Source: Isoptericola halotolerans
GTDB lineage: Bacteria; Actinomycetota; Actinomycetes; Actinomycetales; Cellulomonadaceae
Direction of reading: 5' to 3'
Length of the DNA stretch: 64,000 bases
NCBI RefSeq assembly: GCF_003003075.1
Contig: NZ_PVTX01000004.1
Location: forward strand, 124,001 to 188,000
Position 1 is the first letter of the stretch. Each line of letters begins with the position of its first letter. This document shows positions 2,988 to 62,772 of this stretch, in pieces. Under the pieces are notes generated by a model, which saw nothing but the letters and a program-made list of their open reading frames with translations, did no database searches and was not told the origin of the DNA. The position numbers were made by a program, and so were the translations under genes.

Positions 2988-3959
2988 TCAGGCCTCCTCG
3001 TGGCCGGTACCGGCCCCGGACATGGCGCGGCGGGCCCGCCGCGACGGGGGCTCGGCGGTGTGGGAGTCCACGGGGTCCTCGGCGAGCGGCGCCAGCTCCG
3101 GGGCGTCGTGCTCGAACGCGCCCTGCTCGACGGCGGCCTCTGCGGCCTGCTCGGCAGCGAGGTCGCCCGGCTCGGGCTGGACCACGATCCGGGGCGTCGG
3201 TGCACCGCGCCGCGGCACCCCACGTCCCGGGGCGTCGAGCACCGGGGCCGGACCGACCAGCGGCAGGATGTCCTCGCGGCGGCCGTACTCGGCGTCCGCC
3301 TCGTCGCGGACCACGTGCCCCGTCGAGAGCTCCACGACGCGACGGCGCATCTCGTTGACGATCTCGTCGTCGTGCGTCGCCATGACCACGGTGGTCCCGG
3401 TGCTGTTGATCCGGTCCAGGAGCCGCATGATGCCGAGCGACGTCGTCGGGTCGAGGTTGCCGGTGGGCTCGTCCGCGAGCAGGATCTGCGGGCGGTTGAC
3501 GAACGCCCGGGCGATGGCGACGCGCTGCTGCTCGCCGCCGGAGAGCTCGTGGGGGCGGCGCTTCTCCTTGCCGTCCAGCCCCACCCACTCGAGGACCTCG
3601 GGCACGGTGGTCCGGATGGTGTGGCGCGGGCGGCCGATCACCTGGAGCGCGAAGGCCACGTTCTCGTAGACGTTCTTGTTGGGCAGCAGGCGGAAGTCCT
3701 GGAAGACCATGCCGATGCCGCGCCGCAGCGAGGGCACCTTCCACCCGGACAGCCGGGTCAGGTCGCGGCCGGCGACGTAGACGCGACCACCGGTGGGCCG
3801 CTCCTCGCGGAGCACCAGCCGCAGGAACGTCGACTTGCCGGAGCCGGACGCGCCGACGAGGAAGACGAACTCGCCGCGCTCGATGTCGACGGAGACCTCG
3901 TCGAGCGCCGGCCTCGCCCCCCTGGCGTAGACCTTCGAGACGTTCTCGAACCTGATCAC
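2988..3959 (-). CDS. ftsE: Cell division ATPase FtsE with C-terminal extension
   Basis: FtsE is the ABC ATPase partner of FtsX. Residues 36-44 form Walker A (GASGSGKST). The signature LSGGEQQR, Walker B ILLADEPT and the switch histidine in ATHDDE follow. The GTG start ([11 protein letters not shown]) has GGAGGG about 7 bases upstream. A longer frame from 3995 lacks a better site. The usual protein is about 229 residues and this one is 323. The extra 90 or so C-terminal residues are rich in Pro, Ala, Glu and Arg with no recognisable domain. The gap upstream holds the 20-bp repeat array. Confidence 0.94.
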
Positions 3960-4120
3960 TGCGTGCCCTCCCCCCGACGGGCACCACGGGACCACGGTGC
4001 TCGCCTGATCGAGAGTCGCACGACGGCGGTCCCCGCCCGCCGGAGGACACGCCGGTGTGTCGCGGGTCGATCAGTTGCTCGACGCAACACCGGACAAACA
4101 GCGGAAATCCGCCAAACCCC

Positions 4121-4280
4121 GAGGTAGTGCCCATTCCGCCGACGTAGTCCCGCTCGCGCCGAGGTAGTGCGCGGCTCGCCGAGGTAGTAGGCGGCTCGCC
4201 GAGGTAGTGGGCCCGGCGCCGAGGTAGTGGGCCCGGCGCCGAGGTAGTGCCCGGCTCCGCGAAGTAGTGCGGCGCCGTTC
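4121..4280. repeat. Intergenic array: 8 units of 20 bp with core GAGGTAGT
   Basis: Eight consecutive units start at 4121, 4141, 4161, 4181, 4201, 4221, 4241 and 4261. Each begins with GAGGTAGT or a one-base variant (GACGTAGT, GAAGTAGT). The remaining 12 bases are GC-rich and variable, though the units at 4201 and 4221 are identical. The array fills most of the 330-bp gap between the prfB stop (4290) and the ftsE start (3959). On the prfB/ftsE transcript strand it reads ACTACCTC. The same core and period occur near 15.4 kb and 61.7 kb. Function is unknown. Confidence 0.95.
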
Positions 4281-4289
4281 GGGCTCAGG

Positions 4290-5399
4290 TCAGCTCTCGC
4301 CGCCCGAACGACGCCAGCGGATGCCGGCCTCGATGAACTCGTCGATCGCGCCGTCGAACACGTTCTGCGTGCTGCCGGACTCGTGCTCGGTGCGCAGGTC
4401 CTTGACCATCTGGTACGGGTGCAGCACGTAGGAGCGCATCTGATCGCCCCAGGACGCCTTGATGTCCCCGGCCATCTCCTTCTTCTTCGCCGCCTCCTCC
4501 GCCTGGCGGATCAGCAGCAGGCGCGACTGCATGACGCGCAGCGCGGCGGCGCGGTTCTGGATCTGGGACTTCTCGTTCTGCATCGACACCACGGTGCCCG
4601 TGGGGATGTGAGTCATGCGCACGGCGGAGTCCGTGGTGTTCACGGACTGGCCACCCGGGCCCGAGGAGCGGAAGACGTCGATCTTGAGCTCGTTCTCCGG
4701 GATCTCGATCGAGTCCGTCTGCTCGATGAGCGGGATCACCTCGACGGCGGCGAAGGAGGTCTGCCGGCGGCCCTGGTTGTCGAACGGCGAGATGCGGACG
4801 AGGCGGTGCGTGCCGGCCTCGACCGACAGGTGCCCGAACGCGTACGGCGCGTCGACCTCGAACGTCGCGGACTTGAGCCCCGCCTCCTCGGCGTAGGACG
4901 TGTCCATGACCTTCGTGGGATAGCCGTGGCGCTCGGCCCAGCGCAGGTACATGCGCATGAGCATCTCGGCGAAGTCCGCCGCGTCGACGCCACCGGCGCC
5001 CGCGCGGATCGTCACGACCGCGGCGCGGGCGTCGTACTCACCGTTGAGCAGGGTGCGGACCTCCAGCGACTGCAGGTCCTTGCGGATCGCCTCGACCTCG
5101 GCCTGCGCCTCGTCCAGGGAGTCGGCGTCCTCCATCTCGTTGCCCAGCTCGACGAGGGTCTCGACGTCGTCGATCCGGCTGCCGAGACGCTTCACGCGCT
5201 CCAGCTCGCTCTGCGCGTGCGACAGCGCCGACGTGACCTTCTGCGCGTTGTCCTGGTCGTCCCACAGGTCGGGAGAGGCCGCCTGGTCGGACAGCATCTC
5301 GATCCGCTCCTGCAGGACAGCAGGGTCGCTCACCGACTCGATGGACGTGAGGGTGGAGCGGAGCGCCTTGATCTCGGCGGGAAAGTCGATGGTGGCCAC
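4290..5399 (-). CDS. prfB: Peptide chain release factor 2
   Basis: RF2 reads UGA and UAA stop codons and triggers peptidyl-tRNA hydrolysis. The GGQ motif is in [17 protein letters not shown], and the stop-recognition SPF tripeptide is in [11 protein letters not shown]. The protein is 369 residues when started at GTG 5399 ([15 protein letters not shown]). A TTG three codons upstream is possible, but the GTG lies 8 bases after a TAGGCT hexamer, fitting a leaderless start. There is no in-frame UGA, so the programmed frameshift of Escherichia coli RF2 is absent. It lies upstream of ftsE on the same strand, separated by the repeat array. Confidence 0.96.
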
Positions 5400-10324: not shown

Positions 10325-11178
10325 CGCAGCACCCGGCTCTCCTCGGGCAGCCGCCCGATCCGTCGCATGACCTGGTAGGCCAGCACCGAGCAGGCGGCGC
10401 CGGCCGCGAGGACGGCCACGCCGGCGGCGGAGTCGTAGGCGCGCGCCGTCTCCGGGCGGGTCGCGAGAAACGCGAGCACCACCCAGGGTCCCGCGGCAGC
10501 CAGGCGGGCGCCGTTGATCGTCCAGGACTGCCGGGCCTCGAGCTCCCCTCGGGTGCGCGCGTCTTCACGGAGGAACTCGGAGAGGCTCTTGAGCAGCCGA
10601 CCCAGGTCCGTGCCACCGACCTCGCGGGTCAGCCGCAGCGCCTCGACGATGCGGTCCGCCACCGGGTCGGCGAGCCGCGCCTTGAGCAGGTCCAAGCACT
10701 CCCCGAACCGTCCGGTGGCCCGGTAGTCGGCGGCGAAGCGGGCGAACGGCTCGCGCAGCTCTGCGGGGCCGCGTTCGCCGAGCTGCGCGACCGCCTCCGG
10801 CAGCGAGAGTCCGGCACGGACTCCCGAGGCGAGGTGGTCGACGGCGTCCGGCCACACGTCCCGCAGGCTCTCGCGCCGTCGTCGGGCCCGGACACGGAGC
10901 AGCACCTCCGGCGCCACGGTGGCCATCAGCGCGAAGCAGCCGGCGATGGCAGGAGAGCGGGTCAGGGCGAGGCCCACCAGCATCACGGTCAGACCCACCC
11001 CCGCGCTGAACGCGTAGAGCGCGCCCGGCCCGACGCGCGGGACGCCCGCCTGGACCAGGACGTCCTGCAACACCTGGTTGCGCCTGCTTCGACGCACCCG
11101 GGATCCCGTCGGCTCCCAGCAGGACAGCCACACGAGGACGAGACCCACACCGCCGACGAGGCCGATCAGCACGCCCAT
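10321..11178 (-). CDS. tadB: Type II/IV secretion inner-membrane protein TadB
   Basis: This 285-residue T2SF-domain protein pairs with TadC as the membrane platform moved by the TadA ATPase. An N-terminal helix is followed by a second helix pair near 55-95, the conserved cytoplasmic domain (WPDAVDHLASGVRAGLSLPEA, LRLTREVGGTDLGRLLKSL) and C-terminal helices. It starts in a TGATG overlap with the tadA stop and ends in an ATGA overlap with tadC, so the three are translated as a unit. Confidence 0.9.
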   Translation of the reverse strand: MGVLIGLVGGVGLVLVWLSCWEPTGSRVRRSRRNQVLQDVLVQAGVPRVGPGALYAFSAGVGLTVMLVGLALTRSPAIAGCFALMATVAPEVLLRVRARRRRESLRDVWPDAVDHLASGVRAGLSLPEAVAQLGERGPAELREPFARFAADYRATGRFGECLDLLKARLADPVADRIVEALRLTREVGGTDLGRLLKSLSEFLREDARTRGELEARQSWTINGARLAAAGPWVVLAFLATRPETARAYDSAAGVAVLAAGAACSVLAYQVMRRIGRLPEESRVLR

Positions 11179-14028: not shown

Positions 14029-14083
14029 GCCGTCACCCTTCCCGGCGCGCCCCGTCCGGACAAGTGCCGGAGGTCACGGTCGG

Positions 14084-14089
14084 TAGGGT
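14084..14089 (+). promoter_or_regulatory. -10-like TAGGGT, leaderless start of aminotransferase
   Basis: TAGGGT lies exactly 7 bases before ATG 14097 with no Shine-Dalgarno between them. Confidence 0.6.
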
Positions 14090-14096
14090 CGAGCGC

Positions 14097-15308
14097 ATGA
14101 CGTCCACCCCGCGCTGGCGCCAGGTCGCCGCAGCGACCGGCCTGCTCGCGCCGAGCGGCGCCGTCGGGCAGACGATCTTCGCCGAGATGACGGTGCTGGC
14201 GAACCGCACGGGCGCGATCAACCTGGGTCAGGGCTTCCCGGACGTGGACGGCCCCGACTACGTCAAGGAGGCCGCGAAGGCCGCCATCGACGCCGGCCGC
14301 AACCAGTACGCCCCGGGCGACGGCGTCCCCGAGCTGCGCCGCGCCGTCGCCGAGCACCAGCACCGCCACTACGGCCTGGACGTGGACCCGGACACCGAGG
14401 TCCTGGTCGCGACCGGGGCCACCGAGGCCCTGACGGCCGCGATCCTGGCGCTGACCGGCCCCGGCGACGAGGTCATCACCCTCGAACCGTTCTACGACTC
14501 CCACGCCGCCGCGATCGCGATGGCCGGCGCCACCCACGTGCCGGTCCCCCTGACCGCCGACCTGCGCCTCGACGCGGCGGCCCTGCGCGCCGCCGCCACG
14601 GACCGCACGCGTCTCATCCTCGTGAACACGCCGCACAACCCCACCGGCACCGTGCTGACCCGCGCCGAGCTCGAGGACGTCGCCGCCGTCGCCCGCGAGC
14701 GCGACACCGTCGTGCTCACCGACGAGGTCTACGAGCACCTCGTCTACGACGACGCGACGCACGTCCCGATGGCCACGCTGCCCGGCATGGCCGAGCGCAC
14801 GCTCACGGTGTCGAGCTCGGGCAAGACGTTCAGCCTGACGGGCTGGAAGGTCGGGTGGCTGCACGGCCCGGCCGAGCTGGTCACGGCCGTGCGCACGGTC
14901 AAGCAGTTCATGACGTATACCTCGGGCTCGGCGTTCCAGCCGGCGATCGCGCTGGCGCTCGCCGACGACGAGACCCCGCGCGCCCTCGCCGCGTCCCTCG
15001 CCGCACGCCGCGACCTGCTGCGCGAGGGCCTCGAGGCGGCGGGCTTCGACGTCGTCGTCCCGCGCGGCACGTACTTCGTGGTGGCCGACGGCGCGGCGCA
15101 CGTCGCACGACTCGGTCTCGAGGACGGCCACGACCTGTGCCTGCGCCTGCCGGAGCTCGCCGGGGTGGTGGGCGTCCCGGTCTCGGCGTTCTGCCGGCAG
15201 GGGTCGACGGCGGCACGAGCGCTGCGCTCGCGGGTGCGGTTCACGTTCGTCAAGCGTCCCGAGGTGCTGCGTGACGCCGTCGGGCGCCTCGCGACGCTCG
15301 GGCGGTAG
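14097..15308 (+). CDS. Class I/II pyridoxal-phosphate aminotransferase
   Basis: This 403-residue fold-type I aminotransferase has INLGQGFPDVDGPDYVK at the N-terminus, NTPHNPTGTVLTRAEL for the substrate/PLP Asn, TDEVYEHLVYD for the PLP Asp and Tyr, and SSSGKTFSLTGWKVGW with the Schiff-base Lys. RVRFTFVKRPE carries the carboxylate-binding Arg. The pattern is closest to the kynurenine/methionine aminotransferase (YbdL/KAT) group; N-succinyldiaminopimelate aminotransferases are related. Exact substrate is not determined by sequence alone. ATG 14097 is set by the TAGGGT element 7 bases upstream. A 20-bp repeat array begins 32 bases after its stop. Confidence 0.9.
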   Translation: MTSTPRWRQVAAATGLLAPSGAVGQTIFAEMTVLANRTGAINLGQGFPDVDGPDYVKEAAKAAIDAGRNQYAPGDGVPELRRAVAEHQHRHYGLDVDPDTEVLVATGATEALTAAILALTGPGDEVITLEPFYDSHAAAIAMAGATHVPVPLTADLRLDAAALRAAATDRTRLILVNTPHNPTGTVLTRAELEDVAAVARERDTVVLTDEVYEHLVYDDATHVPMATLPGMAERTLTVSSSGKTFSLTGWKVGWLHGPAELVTAVRTVKQFMTYTSGSAFQPAIALALADDETPRALAASLAARRDLLREGLEAAGFDVVVPRGTYFVVADGAAHVARLGLEDGHDLCLRLPELAGVVGVPVSAFCRQGSTAARALRSRVRFTFVKRPEVLRDAVGRLATLGR

Positions 15309-15340: not shown

Positions 15341-15455
15341 GCTACCTCGCGCCGCACTGCACTACCTCGGCGACGACGGCACTACCTCGGCGCAGTAGGC
15401 GCTACCTCGTGCCGCGCCGCACTACCTCGGCGGGAACCGCTCTACCTCGGTGTGG
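15341..15455. repeat. Intergenic array: 6 units of 20 bp, core CTACCTCG
   Basis: CTACCTCG recurs with starts at 15342, 15362, 15382, 15402, 15422 and 15442, exactly 20 bp apart. The intervening 12 bases vary. This is the reverse-strand form of the 4.1-kb array. It fills the gap between the convergent aminotransferase (stop 15308) and LysE (stop 15456), and the last core ends 6 bases from the LysE stop. Confidence 0.94.
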
Positions 15456-16070
15456 TCAGCCAAGCAGGAGCGAGGCCGCCACCGCCAGCATGATGAGCGC
15501 GATCACGCCGTCGACCACCCGCCACGCGCCCGGGCGACGCAGCAGCGGCGCGAGGAACCGCGCCCCGTAGCCGAGGCCCACGAACCACAGCATGCTCGAC
15601 ACCACCGCGCCGGCCGTGAACAGCCAGCGGTCGTCGCCGTAGCCGGCGGCGATCGAGCCCTGCAGCACCACGGTGTCCAGGTACACGTGCGGGTTGAGCC
15701 AGGTGAGGGCGAGCGCGGTGAGCAGCACCGGTCGCAGCCGCCGTCCGGCGTCGGACCGGGCGACGTCCCGAGCGGCCTCAAGCTCCTCGCCGCCGCGCCA
15801 CGCCCGGCGGGCGGCCAGCGCGCCGTACCCGAGGACGACGGCGGCGCCCGCCCAGCGGGCCACCTCGACCAGTCCCGGGTGCTGCTCGACGAGGGCGCCG
15901 AGGCCTGCACCACCCGCTGCGTACAGGACCGCGTCCGAGGCCGCGCAGACCAGGACCACGACGCCCACGTGCTCACGTCGCACGCCCTGGCGCAGCACGA
16001 AGGCGTTCTGGGCACCGATGGCGACGATGAGCGAGAGACCGAGGCCGAGCCCGGCGAGAAAGATGAGCAC
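15456..16070 (-). CDS. LysE/ArgO-type basic amino acid exporter
   Basis: This 204-residue, six-helix exporter has the LysE motif near the N-terminus (IVAIGAQNAFVLRQG) and a central TWLNPHVYLDTVVLQGS, both typical. In Corynebacterium glutamicum LysE exports lysine and arginine under LysG control. The divergent lysG-like gene 73 bases away supports the same pairing. GTG 16070 sits 6 bases after TAGCGT, so the mRNA may be leaderless. Alternative substrates within the RhtB/LysE superfamily are possible. Confidence 0.92.
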   Translation of the reverse strand: MLIFLAGLGLGLSLIVAIGAQNAFVLRQGVRREHVGVVVLVCAASDAVLYAAGGAGLGALVEQHPGLVEVARWAGAAVVLGYGALAARRAWRGGEELEAARDVARSDAGRRLRPVLLTALALTWLNPHVYLDTVVLQGSIAAGYGDDRWLFTAGAVVSSMLWFVGLGYGARFLAPLLRRPGAWRVVDGVIALIMLAVAASLLLG

Positions 16071-58969: not shown

Positions 58970-60805
58970 ATGCAGACCCACCAGTACGACGTCGTCATCG
59001 TCGGCGCAGGCGGCGCCGGCATGCGCGCGGCGCTCGAGGCCTCGAAGGGGGCCCGCACCGCGGTCATCTCCAAGCTGTACCCCACGCGTTCCCACACCGG
59101 CGCCGCCCAGGGCGGCATGTGCGCCGCCCTGGCGAACGTCGAGGAGGACAACTGGGAGTGGCACACCTTCGACACCATCAAGGGCGGCGACTACCTCGTC
59201 GACCAGGACGCCGCGGAGGTCATGGCCAAGGAGGCCATCGACGCCGTGCTGGACCTGGAGCGGATGGGCCTGCCGTTCAACCGCACGCCGGAGGGCCGGA
59301 TCGACCAGCGCCGCTTCGGCGGCCACACCCGCAACCACGGTGAGGCCGCGGTGCGCCGCGCCTGCTACGCCGCGGACCGCACCGGCCACATGATCCTGCA
59401 GACGCTGTACCAGAACTGCGTCAAGCAGGACGTGGAGTTCTTCAACGAGTTCTACGTGCTGGACCTGCTCACCGACCACGACCTCACCACCGAGGACATC
59501 GAGGACGGCGCGGAGGTCAACGCGACCGGCGTCGTCGCCTACGACCTGGCCTCGGGCGAGACCCACGTGTTCCAGGCGAAGGCGATCATCTTCGCCACGG
59601 GCGGCGCGGGCAAGATCTTCAAGACGACGTCCAACGCCCACACCCTCACCGGCGACGGGATGGCCCTCGCCTACCGGCGCGGTCTGCCGCTGGAGGACAT
59701 GGAGTTCTTCCAGTTCCACCCCACCGGCCTCGCGGGCCTGGGCATCCTGCTCTCGGAGGCCGCACGCGGCGAGGGCGGCATCCTGCGCAACTCCGAGGGC
59801 GAGCGCTTCATGGAGCGCTACGCCCCCACCATCAAGGACCTGGCGCCGCGCGACATCGTCGCCCGGTCCATGGCCAACGAGGTGCGCGAGGGCCGCGGTG
59901 CCGGTCCCAACAAGGACTACGTGCTGCTCGACCTGACGCACCTGGAGCCGGCGCACATCGACGCCAAGCTGCCGGACATCACCGAGTTCGCCCGCACCTA
60001 CCTCGGTATCGAGCCGTACACCGAACCGGTACCGGTGTACCCCACCGCGCACTACGCGATGGGTGGCGTGCCGACCAACATCAAGGGCGAGGTGCTCCGC
60101 GACGGCCACAACGTCGTCAAGGGCCTCTACGCCGCCGGTGAGGTCGCCTGCGTCTCCGTGCACGGGTCGAACCGCCTCGGCACCAACTCGCTGCTCGACA
60201 TCAACGTCTTCGGCAAGCGCTCCGGCCGCTCGGCCGCCGCCTACGCCCAGACGGTGGAGCAGCACCTGCCGATCCCGGAGAACCCCGCCGCCCGCGTCGA
60301 GGCACAGCTCAGCGAGATGCGTGACCGCCCCGAGGGCGAGCGCGTGGCCGAGGTCCGCAAGGCGCTGCAGGAGACCATGGACGCCAACGCCCAGGTGTTC
60401 CGCACCCGCGAGTCGCTCGAGCAGGCCGCGGCCGACATCCGCGACCTGCAGAAGCGCTACAAGAACGTGTCCGTCCAGGACAAGGGCACCCTGTTCAACA
60501 CCGACCTCCTCGAGGCGATCGAGCTGGGCTTCCTGCTCGACATCGCCGAGGTGACGGTGGTCGCGGCGCTCAACCGCCGCGAGTCGCGCGGCGGCCACTA
60601 CCGCGAGGACTACCCGGACCGCGACGACACCAACTACATGCTGCACACGATGGCGTACCGCCGTCCGACGTCGGCTCCCGACGCCGCCGACGGGCACGTC
60701 GAGGGCTACTTCGACCACGTCGAGGACTTCGGGGACTACAAGGTGGTCCTGGGGTCCAAGACCGTCACCCAGACGCGCTACGAGCCGATGGAGCGGAAGT
60801 ACTGA
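58970..60805 (+). CDS. sdhA: Succinate dehydrogenase flavoprotein subunit
   Basis: This 611-residue FAD subunit oxidises succinate to fumarate. Features include the dinucleotide fold [18 protein letters not shown], the covalent-FAD His in [52 protein letters not shown] with active-site residues, [10 protein letters not shown], and [12 protein letters not shown]. It follows sdhD by 58 bases with an AGGAGG site and shares its stop with the sdhB start. Confidence 0.97.
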
Positions 60806-61575
60806 TGACTGCTGTTCTGGAAAACACCACGGAAGCCGCCCAGGACGGGCAGGCCGGAGCCGTCGCGTCCTTCGAGGTCACGCTGAAGATCCGCCGGTAC
60901 AACCCGGAGGTCTCCGAGGAGGCGGTCTGGGAAGAGCACACCGTCACGGCGCACGGGACCGACCGCGTCCTGGACGCCCTGCACAAGATCAAGTGGGAGC
61001 TGGACGGTTCCCTGACGTTCCGCCGCTCGTGCGCCCACGGTGTGTGCGGCTCGGACGCCATGCGTATCAACGGTCGCAACCGGCTGGCCTGCAAGACGCT
61101 CCTCAAGGACGTCAACCCGGACAAGCCGATCACGGTCGAGCCCATCAAGGGCCTGCCCGTGGTGAAGGACCTCGTGGTCGACATGGAGCCGTTCTTCGCC
61201 TCCTACCGCGAGATCATGCCGTTCCTCATCACCTCGGGGAACGAGCCCAGCCGCGAGAACATCCAGTCGCAGGCCGACCGTGACCGGTTCGACGACACCA
61301 CCAAGTGCATCCTGTGCGCCGCGTGCACGTCGTCGTGCCCGGTGTTCTGGACGGACGGCCAGTACTTCGGCCCGGCCGCGATCGTCAACGCGCACCGGTT
61401 CATCTTCGACTCCCGCGACGAGGGTGCCACCCAGCGCCTGGAGATCCTCAACGACAAGGAGGGCGTGTGGCGCTGCCGCACGACCTTCAACTGCACCGAG
61501 GCCTGCCCGCGCGGCATCGAGGTCACCAAGGCGATCCAGGAGGTCAAGCGGGCGATGATCACCCGCGCCTTCTGA
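60805..61575 (+). CDS. sdhB: Succinate dehydrogenase iron-sulfur subunit
   Basis: This 256-residue subunit carries three Fe-S clusters: [2Fe-2S] in RRSCAHGVCGSDAM with RLACK, [4Fe-4S] in CILCAACTSSCPVF, and [3Fe-4S] in CRTTFNCTEACPRGI. It passes electrons from FAD to quinone. The start overlaps the sdhA stop (TGATG). A long hairpin follows its stop. Confidence 0.97.
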   Translation: MTAVLENTTEAAQDGQAGAVASFEVTLKIRRYNPEVSEEAVWEEHTVTAHGTDRVLDALHKIKWELDGSLTFRRSCAHGVCGSDAMRINGRNRLACKTLLKDVNPDKPITVEPIKGLPVVKDLVVDMEPFFASYREIMPFLITSGNEPSRENIQSQADRDRFDDTTKCILCAACTSSCPVFWTDGQYFGPAAIVNAHRFIFDSRDEGATQRLEILNDKEGVWRCRTTFNCTEACPRGIEVTKAIQEVKRAMITRAF

Positions 61576-61681: not shown

Positions 61682-61707
61682 TTCGTCGTCCGTCCCGGCG
61701 GAAGCGC

Positions 61708-61740
61708 GAGGTAGCGCACGACGGCGCGAGGTAGCGCGAG
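61708..61740. repeat. Intergenic array: 2 units of 20 bp, core GAGGTAGC
   Basis: GAGGTAGCGC begins at 61708 and 61728, exactly 20 bp apart, just before the YihY stop (61741). It is the short third member of the family, on the plus strand like the 4.1-kb array. Confidence 0.8.
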
Positions 61741-62772
61741 TCAGTAGTCGTACAGTCCGCGTCGGACCCCGCGGACCACCGGGCTGTACGGCCGCCCGCT
61801 CCCCGGGCCACGGCGTACCACCCGCTCGATCTCGGCCTGGCGCCGCATCCACGCGACCGTCTCCTCCGCGCGTGCGATCTCTTCGAGCCGCGGCGGGTCG
61901 TACATCCAGGCGCACGCGATCAGCAGCACGCGAGCCACGAAGTTGACGAGGATCAGCAACGCCCCGACCGTGACGATCGACGCCAGGATCACGTTGCGTT
62001 CCGCCGATGCGGTGATCGCCGACGTTCCCACCCACCGCAGCCCGCTGGCCACCAGCCCGGTCGCGAGGCAACCGATCAGCATGTCCCGCCCGTGGCGCGT
62101 GCGCACCCGCGCCACCACCCGGATCACCAGGTAGACCAGCAACGTGTCGAGCACGAGGCCCACCGCGAACGTGCCGGCGGACAGGACCCAGCCCAGCACC
62201 GCCGAGTCACCCAGCCATCGCGTGATCTGGTTGTTCACCGTCTGCGAGACGATGCTCGCGACGGCCGACGCCAGCAGCATCAACCCGAGGATCACGAACC
62301 CCAGCAGCTGCCACACCTTGGACAGCACGGGGCTGACCCCCACCACCGGTGCTTCGAACAGGGACCGCACGGAGTGTCGCAGGGCCGCCATGACGCCGAT
62401 GGCCGTCCACAGGAACACGATCGACGCGACGACGGTGGTCCAGCTCCACGCCGTCGTCCGCACGAGCTCGTCCGGCGAGACCAGCCCGGCATCGTCCGGC
62501 GAGTCCTTCAGCAGTCCCGGCACCCAGCTGTCGATCTGCTCGAAGACCGCCTCACTGAGCTCCGGACGGTTGCCCAGCACCGCCGAGAACACGCTGAAAC
62601 CGATGGTGAGACCCGCGCCGAGGGAGAACAGCGCCGAGTAGGCTATGCCGCCGGAGAGCTGGTTGCCGCGCTGCGCCAGGTACCAGCGCACGGCCCGCAC
62701 CTCACGACGGTCCTGCAGCCACTCCGTCCACCGAGCGATCTTCTCGGTCAGGCGCTCGGGTTCGTCAGGCAC
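61741..62772 (-). CDS. YihY/BrkB (virulence factor) family membrane protein
   Basis: This 343-residue protein has six membrane helices. The first part (WYLAQRGNQLSGGIAYSALFSLGAGLTIG) and WTTVVASIVFLWTAIGVMAALRHS are typical of the UPF0761/YihY family (segments given as landmarks). Function is unclear; it is not RNase BN despite older names. GTG 62772 lies 6 bases after TAGGGT. The C-terminus is basic (RRGPGSGRPYSPVVRGVRR). Confidence 0.9.
   Translation of the reverse strand: MPDEPERLTEKIARWTEWLQDRREVRAVRWYLAQRGNQLSGGIAYSALFSLGAGLTIGFSVFSAVLGNRPELSEAVFEQIDSWVPGLLKDSPDDAGLVSPDELVRTTAWSWTTVVASIVFLWTAIGVMAALRHSVRSLFEAPVVGVSPVLSKVWQLLGFVILGLMLLASAVASIVSQTVNNQITRWLGDSAVLGWVLSAGTFAVGLVLDTLLVYLVIRVVARVRTRHGRDMLIGCLATGLVASGLRWVGTSAITASAERNVILASIVTVGALLILVNFVARVLLIACAWMYDPPRLEEIARAEETVAWMRRQAEIERVVRRGPGSGRPYSPVVRGVRRGLYDY

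Follow-up and report, generated by a model that had tools for sequence, protein, structure and literature searches.

Arrays of a conserved word at 20-bp steps, found at gene ends in Isoptericola, look like landing sites for a DNA-binding protein

Many gene ends in the genome of Isoptericola halotolerans carry short arrays in which a conserved core recurs at a fixed 20-bp step between variable spacers; the arrays stand at loci common to several species, and homologous junctions bear different dialects of the core. To judge from their sequence, they look like undescribed landing sites for a DNA-binding protein that would mark or close the ends of genes. Here we propose tentatively, as a reading that falls a little short of an even chance, that the arrays are genome-wide, polar lattices of sites for a sequence-specific DNA-binding protein, serving as transcription boundaries at gene ends. 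We infer that the reader of the core would be a protein, would recognize DNA and not RNA, would oligomerize and would act on transcription.

The window, that is, the whole stretch of 64,000 nucleotides that was analysed, was itself chosen by no pattern. Its arrays and their neighbours are as follows, with genes called by our own ORF scorer trained on the loci (starts are approximate).

2988..3959, - strand: ftsE, TIGR02673, 285.4 bits against a cut-off of 264.85; start approximate
4120..4268, + strand: array 1, eight 20-bp-phased cores (CGAGGTAGT six times, CGACGTAGT and CGAAGTAGT); the final unit would reach 4279
4276-4284 and 4302-4310, no strand: inverted repeat CGTTCGGGC / GCCCGAACG around the prfB stop codon, adjoining array 1; read from the sequence
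4290..5399, - strand: prfB (peptide chain release factor 2), TIGR00020, 481.6 bits against a cut-off of 370; start approximate
14064..15308, + strand: left convergent gene of array 2, PLP-dependent aminotransferase-like, NF005855, 540.4 bits, just under the cut-off of 553
15341..15449, - strand: array 2, six cores spaced by 20 bp (three of them CGAGGTAGT, the others with one mismatch), in the gap between convergent genes
15456..16070, - strand: right convergent gene of array 2, lysine/arginine exporter-like, TIGR00948, 188.5 bits, under the cut-off of 213.65
61707..61735, + strand: short array, two copies of CGAGGTAGC one 20-bp step apart, where two genes converge (60805-61575 on + and 61741-62772 on -)

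The original prediction of eight cores at exact 20-bp steps between prfB and ftsE is borne out for array 1, both flanking genes scoring above the curated cut-offs of their models. Its cores start (at the C of CGAGGTAGT) at 4120, 4140, 4160, 4180, 4200, 4220, 4240 and 4260, all on the + strand; those at 4140 (CGACGTAGT) and 4260 (CGAAGTAGT) each carry one mismatch, and Tandem Repeats Finder reports periods of 20, 40 and 60. The array lies downstream of prfB, whose stop codon is 22 bp from the last core, and upstream of ftsE, whose start is 160 bp from the first, with the GAGGTAGT strand antisense to both genes. Across the window CGAGGTAGT occurs 59 times with up to one mismatch, against 9.4 +/- 3.3 in shuffles (none of 100 reached 59), and all 18 spacings between exact GAGGTAGT words within 150 bp on the same strand are multiples of 20. 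The short array at 61707-61735, which holds no GAGGTAGT pair and so falls below the array definition, is followed by CGAGTCAG, which enters the stop codon of the - strand gene. Upstream of ftsE, a short way ahead of where the array stands (window 4074-4088), an inverted motif resembling GTTGC..GCAAC was seen by eye in several species (L125-L141); it is perhaps a promoter or operator element of ftsE.

A tandem duplication by chance had been named as the verdict should the array be unique to this strain and its spacing not shared by other loci. What the search of this and related genomes found was 145 exact GAGGTAGT-N12-GAGGTAGT pairs in the I. halotolerans genome itself (3.85 Mb, 22 contigs) and, with the relaxed triple CGANNNAG at 20 bp, arrays in 14 of the 18 genus genomes; G002, G007, G009 and G014 gave none, although these searches detect CGANNNAG words only and array-less species might carry dialects outside that pattern. 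Genome-wide pairs, sharing across the genus and fixed spacing thus rule out uniqueness and chance duplication. The reversed GAGGTAGT pattern gave 0 in every genome of the own, genus and family searches; in the relaxed searches such a control is invalid for dialects ending in AGC, since the reversed pattern there matches the core itself. One 28-mer match, CGACGGAGACGTAGTGCCTACGATCCAG, is found in identical form in all four array-less genomes; it is probably a conserved gene that meets the loose pattern by chance.

Beyond the genus the arrays are few. The exact GAGGTAGT pair is matched in six of the 18 genus genomes and in 11 of 150 sampled family genomes, and the CGANNNAG triple in 33 of 221 family genomes, where G028 and G102 (core CGAG[A/T]TAG) are the strong cases outside the genus, some Cellulosimicrobium (g8) have a few matches and others elsewhere one or a few. 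A scan of GTDB contigs with three cores returned 76 stretches, all from Isoptericola and Krasilnikoviella flava save two from Cellulosimicrobium and one from a Bacteroidales MAG. Neither the order sample nor the phylum sample (396 genomes each) held a further strong case: the first gave 18 matches (five in the genus, two elsewhere in the family and 11 outside it, these last with one or two matches each or a short-period satellite), and the second, searched with four CGAGNNAG cores, gave two, namely I. halotolerans and one CGAGCGAG repeat. Carriage by phage was considered and rejected: the two viral contigs that match CGAGGTAG triples, L203 (at about 2510-2560) and L204 (at about 10750-10800), hold CGAGGTAG-type words in satellites of about 10 bp and not a 20-bp array of core and spacer.

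The set of loci in the I. halotolerans dialect consists of 28 stretches from its own genome (the first 100 of the 145 pairs, contigs C1-C5), the window, the 76 contig stretches, which were selected by three exact cores, and 12 further stretches from four other genomes; because of this selection its counts lean to long, well-kept arrays. These 117 sequences (the window and 116 loci) contain 182 arrays of at least two exact cores, or 177 after removal of L062 (Bacteroidales) and of L115 and L117 (duplicates).

Exact cores on the same strand are 20 bp apart in 421 cases, 21 bp in 11 and 19 bp in two, in loci that were themselves chosen by 20-bp patterns. The 100 exact cores that lie outside the selecting triples in the contig loci give 40 spacings of 9-70 bp: 24 of 20 bp, four of 40 and seven of 60, or 35 in all, and five that are off by one. 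Where two exact cores stand 40 bp apart around a non-exact word, that word, a less biased measure of conservation, differs from the core at one of eight positions in eight cases and at two in one. Unit profiles drawn up for each genome have nine near-fixed positions, then a dialect zone at positions 10-11 and a loose spacer that closes with GC or CG, and the conserved part is a non-palindromic 9-mer. The variable filler that the original prediction described is not wholly free: unit positions 10-12, 16 and 18-20 are biased. When 65 units of homologous arrays were matched by their order between K. flava and QY 916, core positions 1-9 differed in 0-9% of units, a low divergence that is partly built in because the arrays were found by cores with up to one mismatch and the units were matched by order; position 10 differs in 94% (an almost fixed change of dialect), position 11 in 23% and the rest in 42-74%. 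Neighbouring spacers in facing arrays are alike at 5.75 of 11 positions, against 5.16 for other loci of the same genome; spacers of different loci are about as unlike as those of array neighbours, so that copying between loci does not explain the common core.

A coding repeat was rejected, as the 20-bp step breaks the reading frame and no called gene encloses any of the 182 arrays entirely. The suggestion of repeated protein contacts, as opposed to a coding or simple-sequence repeat, is the better supported side, since core and step are kept, spacers are not and the core differs between species at homologous loci; the binder itself we place by inference, none having emerged among the candidates scanned. 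The original prediction drew on a single locus, at which neither the dialects nor the registration with stop codons nor the facing pairs could be visible. Conservation of the core, freedom of the spacer, a fixed step and, at loci that species have in common, species-wide changes of the word are what would be expected from a trans-acting, sequence-specific reader.

Species differ in how they spell the core. We found CGAGGTAGT, forms ending in -AGC, -AGG and -AGA, CGASTCAGC and CGAGATAG; the core of G017 is CGAGGTAGC, and that of G008 is CGASTCAG, which contains no stop codon. The prfB-ftsE gap, legible in 17 of the 18 genus genomes (from G015 the ftsE side alone was recovered), by eye holds an array in nine (I. 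halotolerans, G001, G003, G005, G008, G012, G013, G016 and G017) and none in eight, with cores CGAGGTAGT, CGAGGTAGG, CGAGGTAGA, CGAGGTAGC and CGAGTCAG. Both the array at this gap and the T dialect are present in each of the two clades of a prfB+ftsE tree (two genes, midpoint root, some weak forks). The TCAG dialect occurs in G003 and G008 and also in G013, which groups with the GTAG species; if the two-gene tree is right, core words have therefore changed more than once. G005 mixes dialects, with CGAGGTAGAAC at some loci and CGAGGTAGCGC at others, as if the genome were in transition.

Counting loci by orientation and by distance to stop codons, as the original prediction had advised, we found that 108 of 177 arrays begin within 30 bp of, or overlap, a stop codon in the sense direction. 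The TAG of the first core is itself the gene's stop in 41 of the 177 arrays (GAGGTAGT loci), and 20 start exactly 4 nt after the stop. Junctions with arrays are 59 convergent, 51 co-directional and eight divergent, against 83, 438 and 111, respectively, for junctions without arrays at the same loci, an enrichment between convergent genes with an odds ratio of 6.6 (p 2e-17). In G017, the core TAG serves as a stop codon in nine of 26 arrays, and 19 of the 26 are no more than 30 bp from a sense stop; for G008 the figures are 0 and 14 of 48, the nearest array starting 7 nt after the stop, and tight stop-codon placement is weaker in that dialect. Since the TCAG dialect of G008 has no overlaps, provision of a stop codon was rejected as the purpose of the arrays, and the overlap looks opportunistic, a convenience of GTAG words. 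A replication-direction signal was rejected as well: with the origin assumed at coordinate 1, the two halves of the chromosome do not differ in the strand of the G008 arrays of at least four units (+ 12/14, - 9/11; Fisher p 1.0).

Orientation bears on whether the arrays are read as DNA or as RNA. All 48 junctions of the I. halotolerans dialect that hold both orientations are ordered -> <-, and in gaps of 4-59 bp between facing arrays the stem formed by the cores is extended by at least 2 bp in 20 of 36, giving palindromic centres, while 16 lack this. Mirrored spacers are slightly more alike than controls (5.92 against 5.16 of 11). These features, together with the frequent start of arrays just after stops in the sense direction, are what one would look for in an RNA element, in which transcripts of facing arrays would fold into long, imperfect hairpins and so terminate transcription or shield mRNA 3' ends, the cores pairing, or being bound, as RNA. 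We consider such an element unlikely. Lone arrays with no inverted partner are common (17 sense and 10 antisense at co-directional junctions), and some are antisense only, such as that of the window and, by eye, those in the prfB-ftsE gap of five species; that lone arrays occur in either orientation favours DNA over RNA. The spacers of facing arms are mostly unpaired, and a hairpin requires neither a common core at unrelated loci nor a fixed 20-bp step. A known Rfam family was rejected, there being no match in the whole window at gathering score and none at E up to 1 for 3960-4320. As for intrinsic terminators, which have a GC-rich hairpin followed by a T run, inspection by eye found lone arrays without an inverted partner and some facing arrays with palindromic centres.

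Homologous junctions allow the history of the arrays to be followed. Among 167 array junctions (L013 was also left out), with homology taken as BLASTP E up to 1e-15 for both flanking proteins, 44 cross-species pairs have both flanks similar and arrays in both; these are not 44 independent events, and orientation is not always common (I. halotolerans L106 has - only, G008 L181 - then +). In 19 of the 44 the two members use different core dialects (G008 or G017 against GAGGTAGT species), which suggests from sequence comparison that dialects were probably changed in place. G007, the array-less sister of I. halotolerans and G012, could be aligned on both flanks at 10 of 16 junctions, nine of which are shorter than in I. 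halotolerans (e.g. 21 against 143 bp at L106, 27 against 106 at L107 and 20 against 86 at L086) and one longer (the 15308 junction of the window, about 551 against 147 bp). In some G007 junctions one degenerate core is left, which lies at the same stop in L107 and within a hairpin in L093, and unit numbers in I. halotolerans and G012 are eight and two at L106, six and two at L107, and five and two or three at L099. From these differences in units and junction length, arrays seem to lengthen and shorten 20 bp at a time, starting from a seed at the stop codon. The terminator-like hairpin that G007 has by itself at L105 is flanked in I. halotolerans by facing arrays; the arrays there thus add to the hairpin and do not replace it.

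Such turnover also bears on whether the arrays might be selfish miniature mobile repeats, REP- or MITE-like, that have settled in harmless sites at gene ends, which we regard as rather unlikely. Placement at 3' ends, facing pairs, a patchy distribution in the family and centre sequences that are in some cases common to different loci would suit such repeats, and there is a specific likeness to the REP/BIME elements of RAYT systems, in that several dialects contain a GTAG tag and the arrays lie downstream of genes in facing pairs (PMC3733652). The arrays differ from those elements in having a core and variable spacer at a fixed 20-bp step and TCAG dialects without GTAG. REP/RAYT was rejected on two counts: the Y1 transposase PF01797 was found in none of the 18 genus genomes (five of 14 control genomes had it), and, in place of a GTAG-tagged palindrome of 20-40 bp, the conserved word is non-palindromic and in TCAG dialects has no GTAG. 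Homologous loci common to species with a changed word, spacers that are not common between loci, and unit numbers that shift by 20-bp steps from apparent stop-codon seeds all argue further against mobile repeats.

A third possibility is a drive by DNA uptake or recombination, in which the core would be a species word for a DNA-import or recombination receptor and gene ends would merely be permissive sites. The DUS of Neisseriaceae are short words with one main dialect per species, the dialects being tied by a small common core (PMC3630211). The arrays resemble them in their species-specific dialects of one word, in intergenic inverted pairs near terminators and in the presence of a stop codon in most dialects; they differ from DUS in their tandem 20-bp lattices, their stop-codon placement and, in the I. 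halotolerans loci, the absence of isolated non-coding copies. Dispersed single copies are the point at which the likeness fails: isolated CGAGGTAG words in those loci number 37 in coding and 0 in non-coding sequence, whereas DUS are described as single or inverted-pair words that run to thousands of copies, and not as fixed-step tandem lattices. The reverse-complement core CTACCTCG is in excess inside genes, with 37 occurrences against 20.1 +/- 3.7 in synonymous shuffles for I. halotolerans loci and 67 against 45.7 +/- 5.2 for other T-dialect loci, which would suit an uptake word. This excess is confined to T-dialect loci, could come from codon-pair bias and is lacking in G017 (two against 2.6 expected). 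Also on the side of uptake, an 883-kb stretch around the midpoint of the closed G008 chromosome (1.51-2.39 Mb) is free of long arrays (at least four units, 37 loci; rough P 0.005), which may only reflect the positions of conserved genes. We hold a drive by uptake or recombination to be quite unlikely. Neutral tandem duplication without function, which would explain the unit numbers that differ between sister species at L106 and L107 and some arrays that look freshly duplicated (L088), is highly improbable in view of the core common to unrelated loci, the near-random spacers, the fixed step, the species-wide word and the strong bias in placement.

We therefore return to a lattice of protein-binding sites. 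Under this proposal, the core of each 20-bp cell (CGAGGTAGT in the window) would be recognized by one sequence-specific DNA-binding protein, and the head-to-tail packing of cells every 20 bp would let adjacent proteins touch; a head-to-tail oligomer would be the simplest reason for the exact step. The lattices, at the ends of operons, often running from the stop codon and often two facing each other around a dyad or hairpin, would then act as roadblocks where junctions are tight or convergent, keeping RNA polymerase from leaving a gene or from entering it from the opposite side. Of the possible functions, we judge such a boundary or roadblock to be the most likely. As the specificity of the protein drifts, the cores would follow, giving rise to species dialects. 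The fuller version, in which a lineage-specific protein polymerizes on the 20-bp lattices and seals convergent and tight junctions while at many loci the word is rewritten as species diverge, we hold as a possibility of roughly one-third weight.

The nearest working model is BldC, which forms a polar, head-to-tail filament on DNA direct repeats, variable in number, with 9 bp per subunit, at promoters (PMC5859096). Polar direct repeats are compatible with a head-to-tail oligomer; the arrays have a step of 20 bp where BldC has 9 bp per subunit, and lie at the 3' ends of genes. Other known repeats are also instructive. Plasmid iterons are tandem direct repeats of about 20-22 bp that are bound by one protein at plasmid replication origins; the arrays have a similar period and are dispersed at chromosomal gene ends instead of lying at a replication origin. 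The mycobacterial MIRU and cyanobacterial STRR are dispersed intergenic repeats, and MIRU can overlap stop codons; both have other unit lengths and structures and are not known to have a core/spacer lattice or species dialects. No description of such arrays was found in the open-access PMC literature, and because of this and of the mismatches with DUS, REP and iterons, the arrays are filed as a kind of their own, with 'polar operator array' as a working comparison.

Several observations sit less easily with a boundary. Placement and polarity are looser in G008, where, besides the fewer arrays near sense stops, several junctions are ordered <- ->, against the -> <- rule; four genus genomes live without arrays; and a boundary would be redundant where arrays adjoin apparent intrinsic terminators, as at L098, L105 and L165 of G017, where terminator-like hairpins were seen by eye. 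Palindromic centres are predicted by a hairpin as well, part of the core conservation in the 65-unit comparison is a product of the array-finding rule, and the reverse-complement core is in mild excess inside genes and is not avoided there as a strong roadblock might require, synonymous shuffles indicating no intragenic avoidance of the core in I. halotolerans, other T-dialect and G017 loci. Among candidate binders, ten proteins that neighbour divergent junctions (six of 12 junctions) include one regulator (PadR) and no recurring family; of two families considered as the reader, the Y1 transposase is absent from the genus, and HA-domain proteins (PF03457) were found in none of the 18 genus genomes, with no control genome matching either, so that their absence carries no information. 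Nine of ten flanking proteins scanned from I. halotolerans have ordinary Pfam domains.

If the proposal is right, these bacteria would mark the ends of their genes, genome-wide, by a sequence code that comes in dialects and belongs neither with ordinary intrinsic terminators nor with any known family of repeats. The species form a ready-made series, with homologous junctions that carry different words and sisters with and without arrays. In this series one could test the joint evolution of a DNA-binding protein and its numerous sites, the means by which GC-rich bacteria insulate convergent genes, and what holds a 20-bp lattice in step.

Facing units are preferentially 18, 28-29 or 39 bp apart, and the Rayleigh R peaks at 10.5 bp (0.62 for gaps up to 60 bp; 0.45 for the 19 distinct values). 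With caution, this may be read as a DNA lattice in register, bearing in mind that a hairpin gives palindromic centres too and that related loci are not independent. Within an array, the original suggestion of contacts on one DNA face is not borne out, for a 20-bp step drifts against a 10.5-bp helix across eight units, and helical register is no more than suggestive and is confined to the distances between facing arrays. In G028, from another genus, 20 of 24 picked facing pairs are 51 bp apart from start to start, with two at 50 bp, one at 41 and one at 42; the main geometry is two 20-bp units tail to tail with one base in common. Between + and - arrays at L094 and L111 (both I. halotolerans), L026 and L160 we also noted another dispersed element, a long hairpin (about 90-110 bp) whose copies have a loop region in common, CCGAAGTGGAGGGC ... 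CGTGAACGCGACCGTG, and which occurs in I. halotolerans, in Isoptericola 3-1667 and, twice within L160, in G008.
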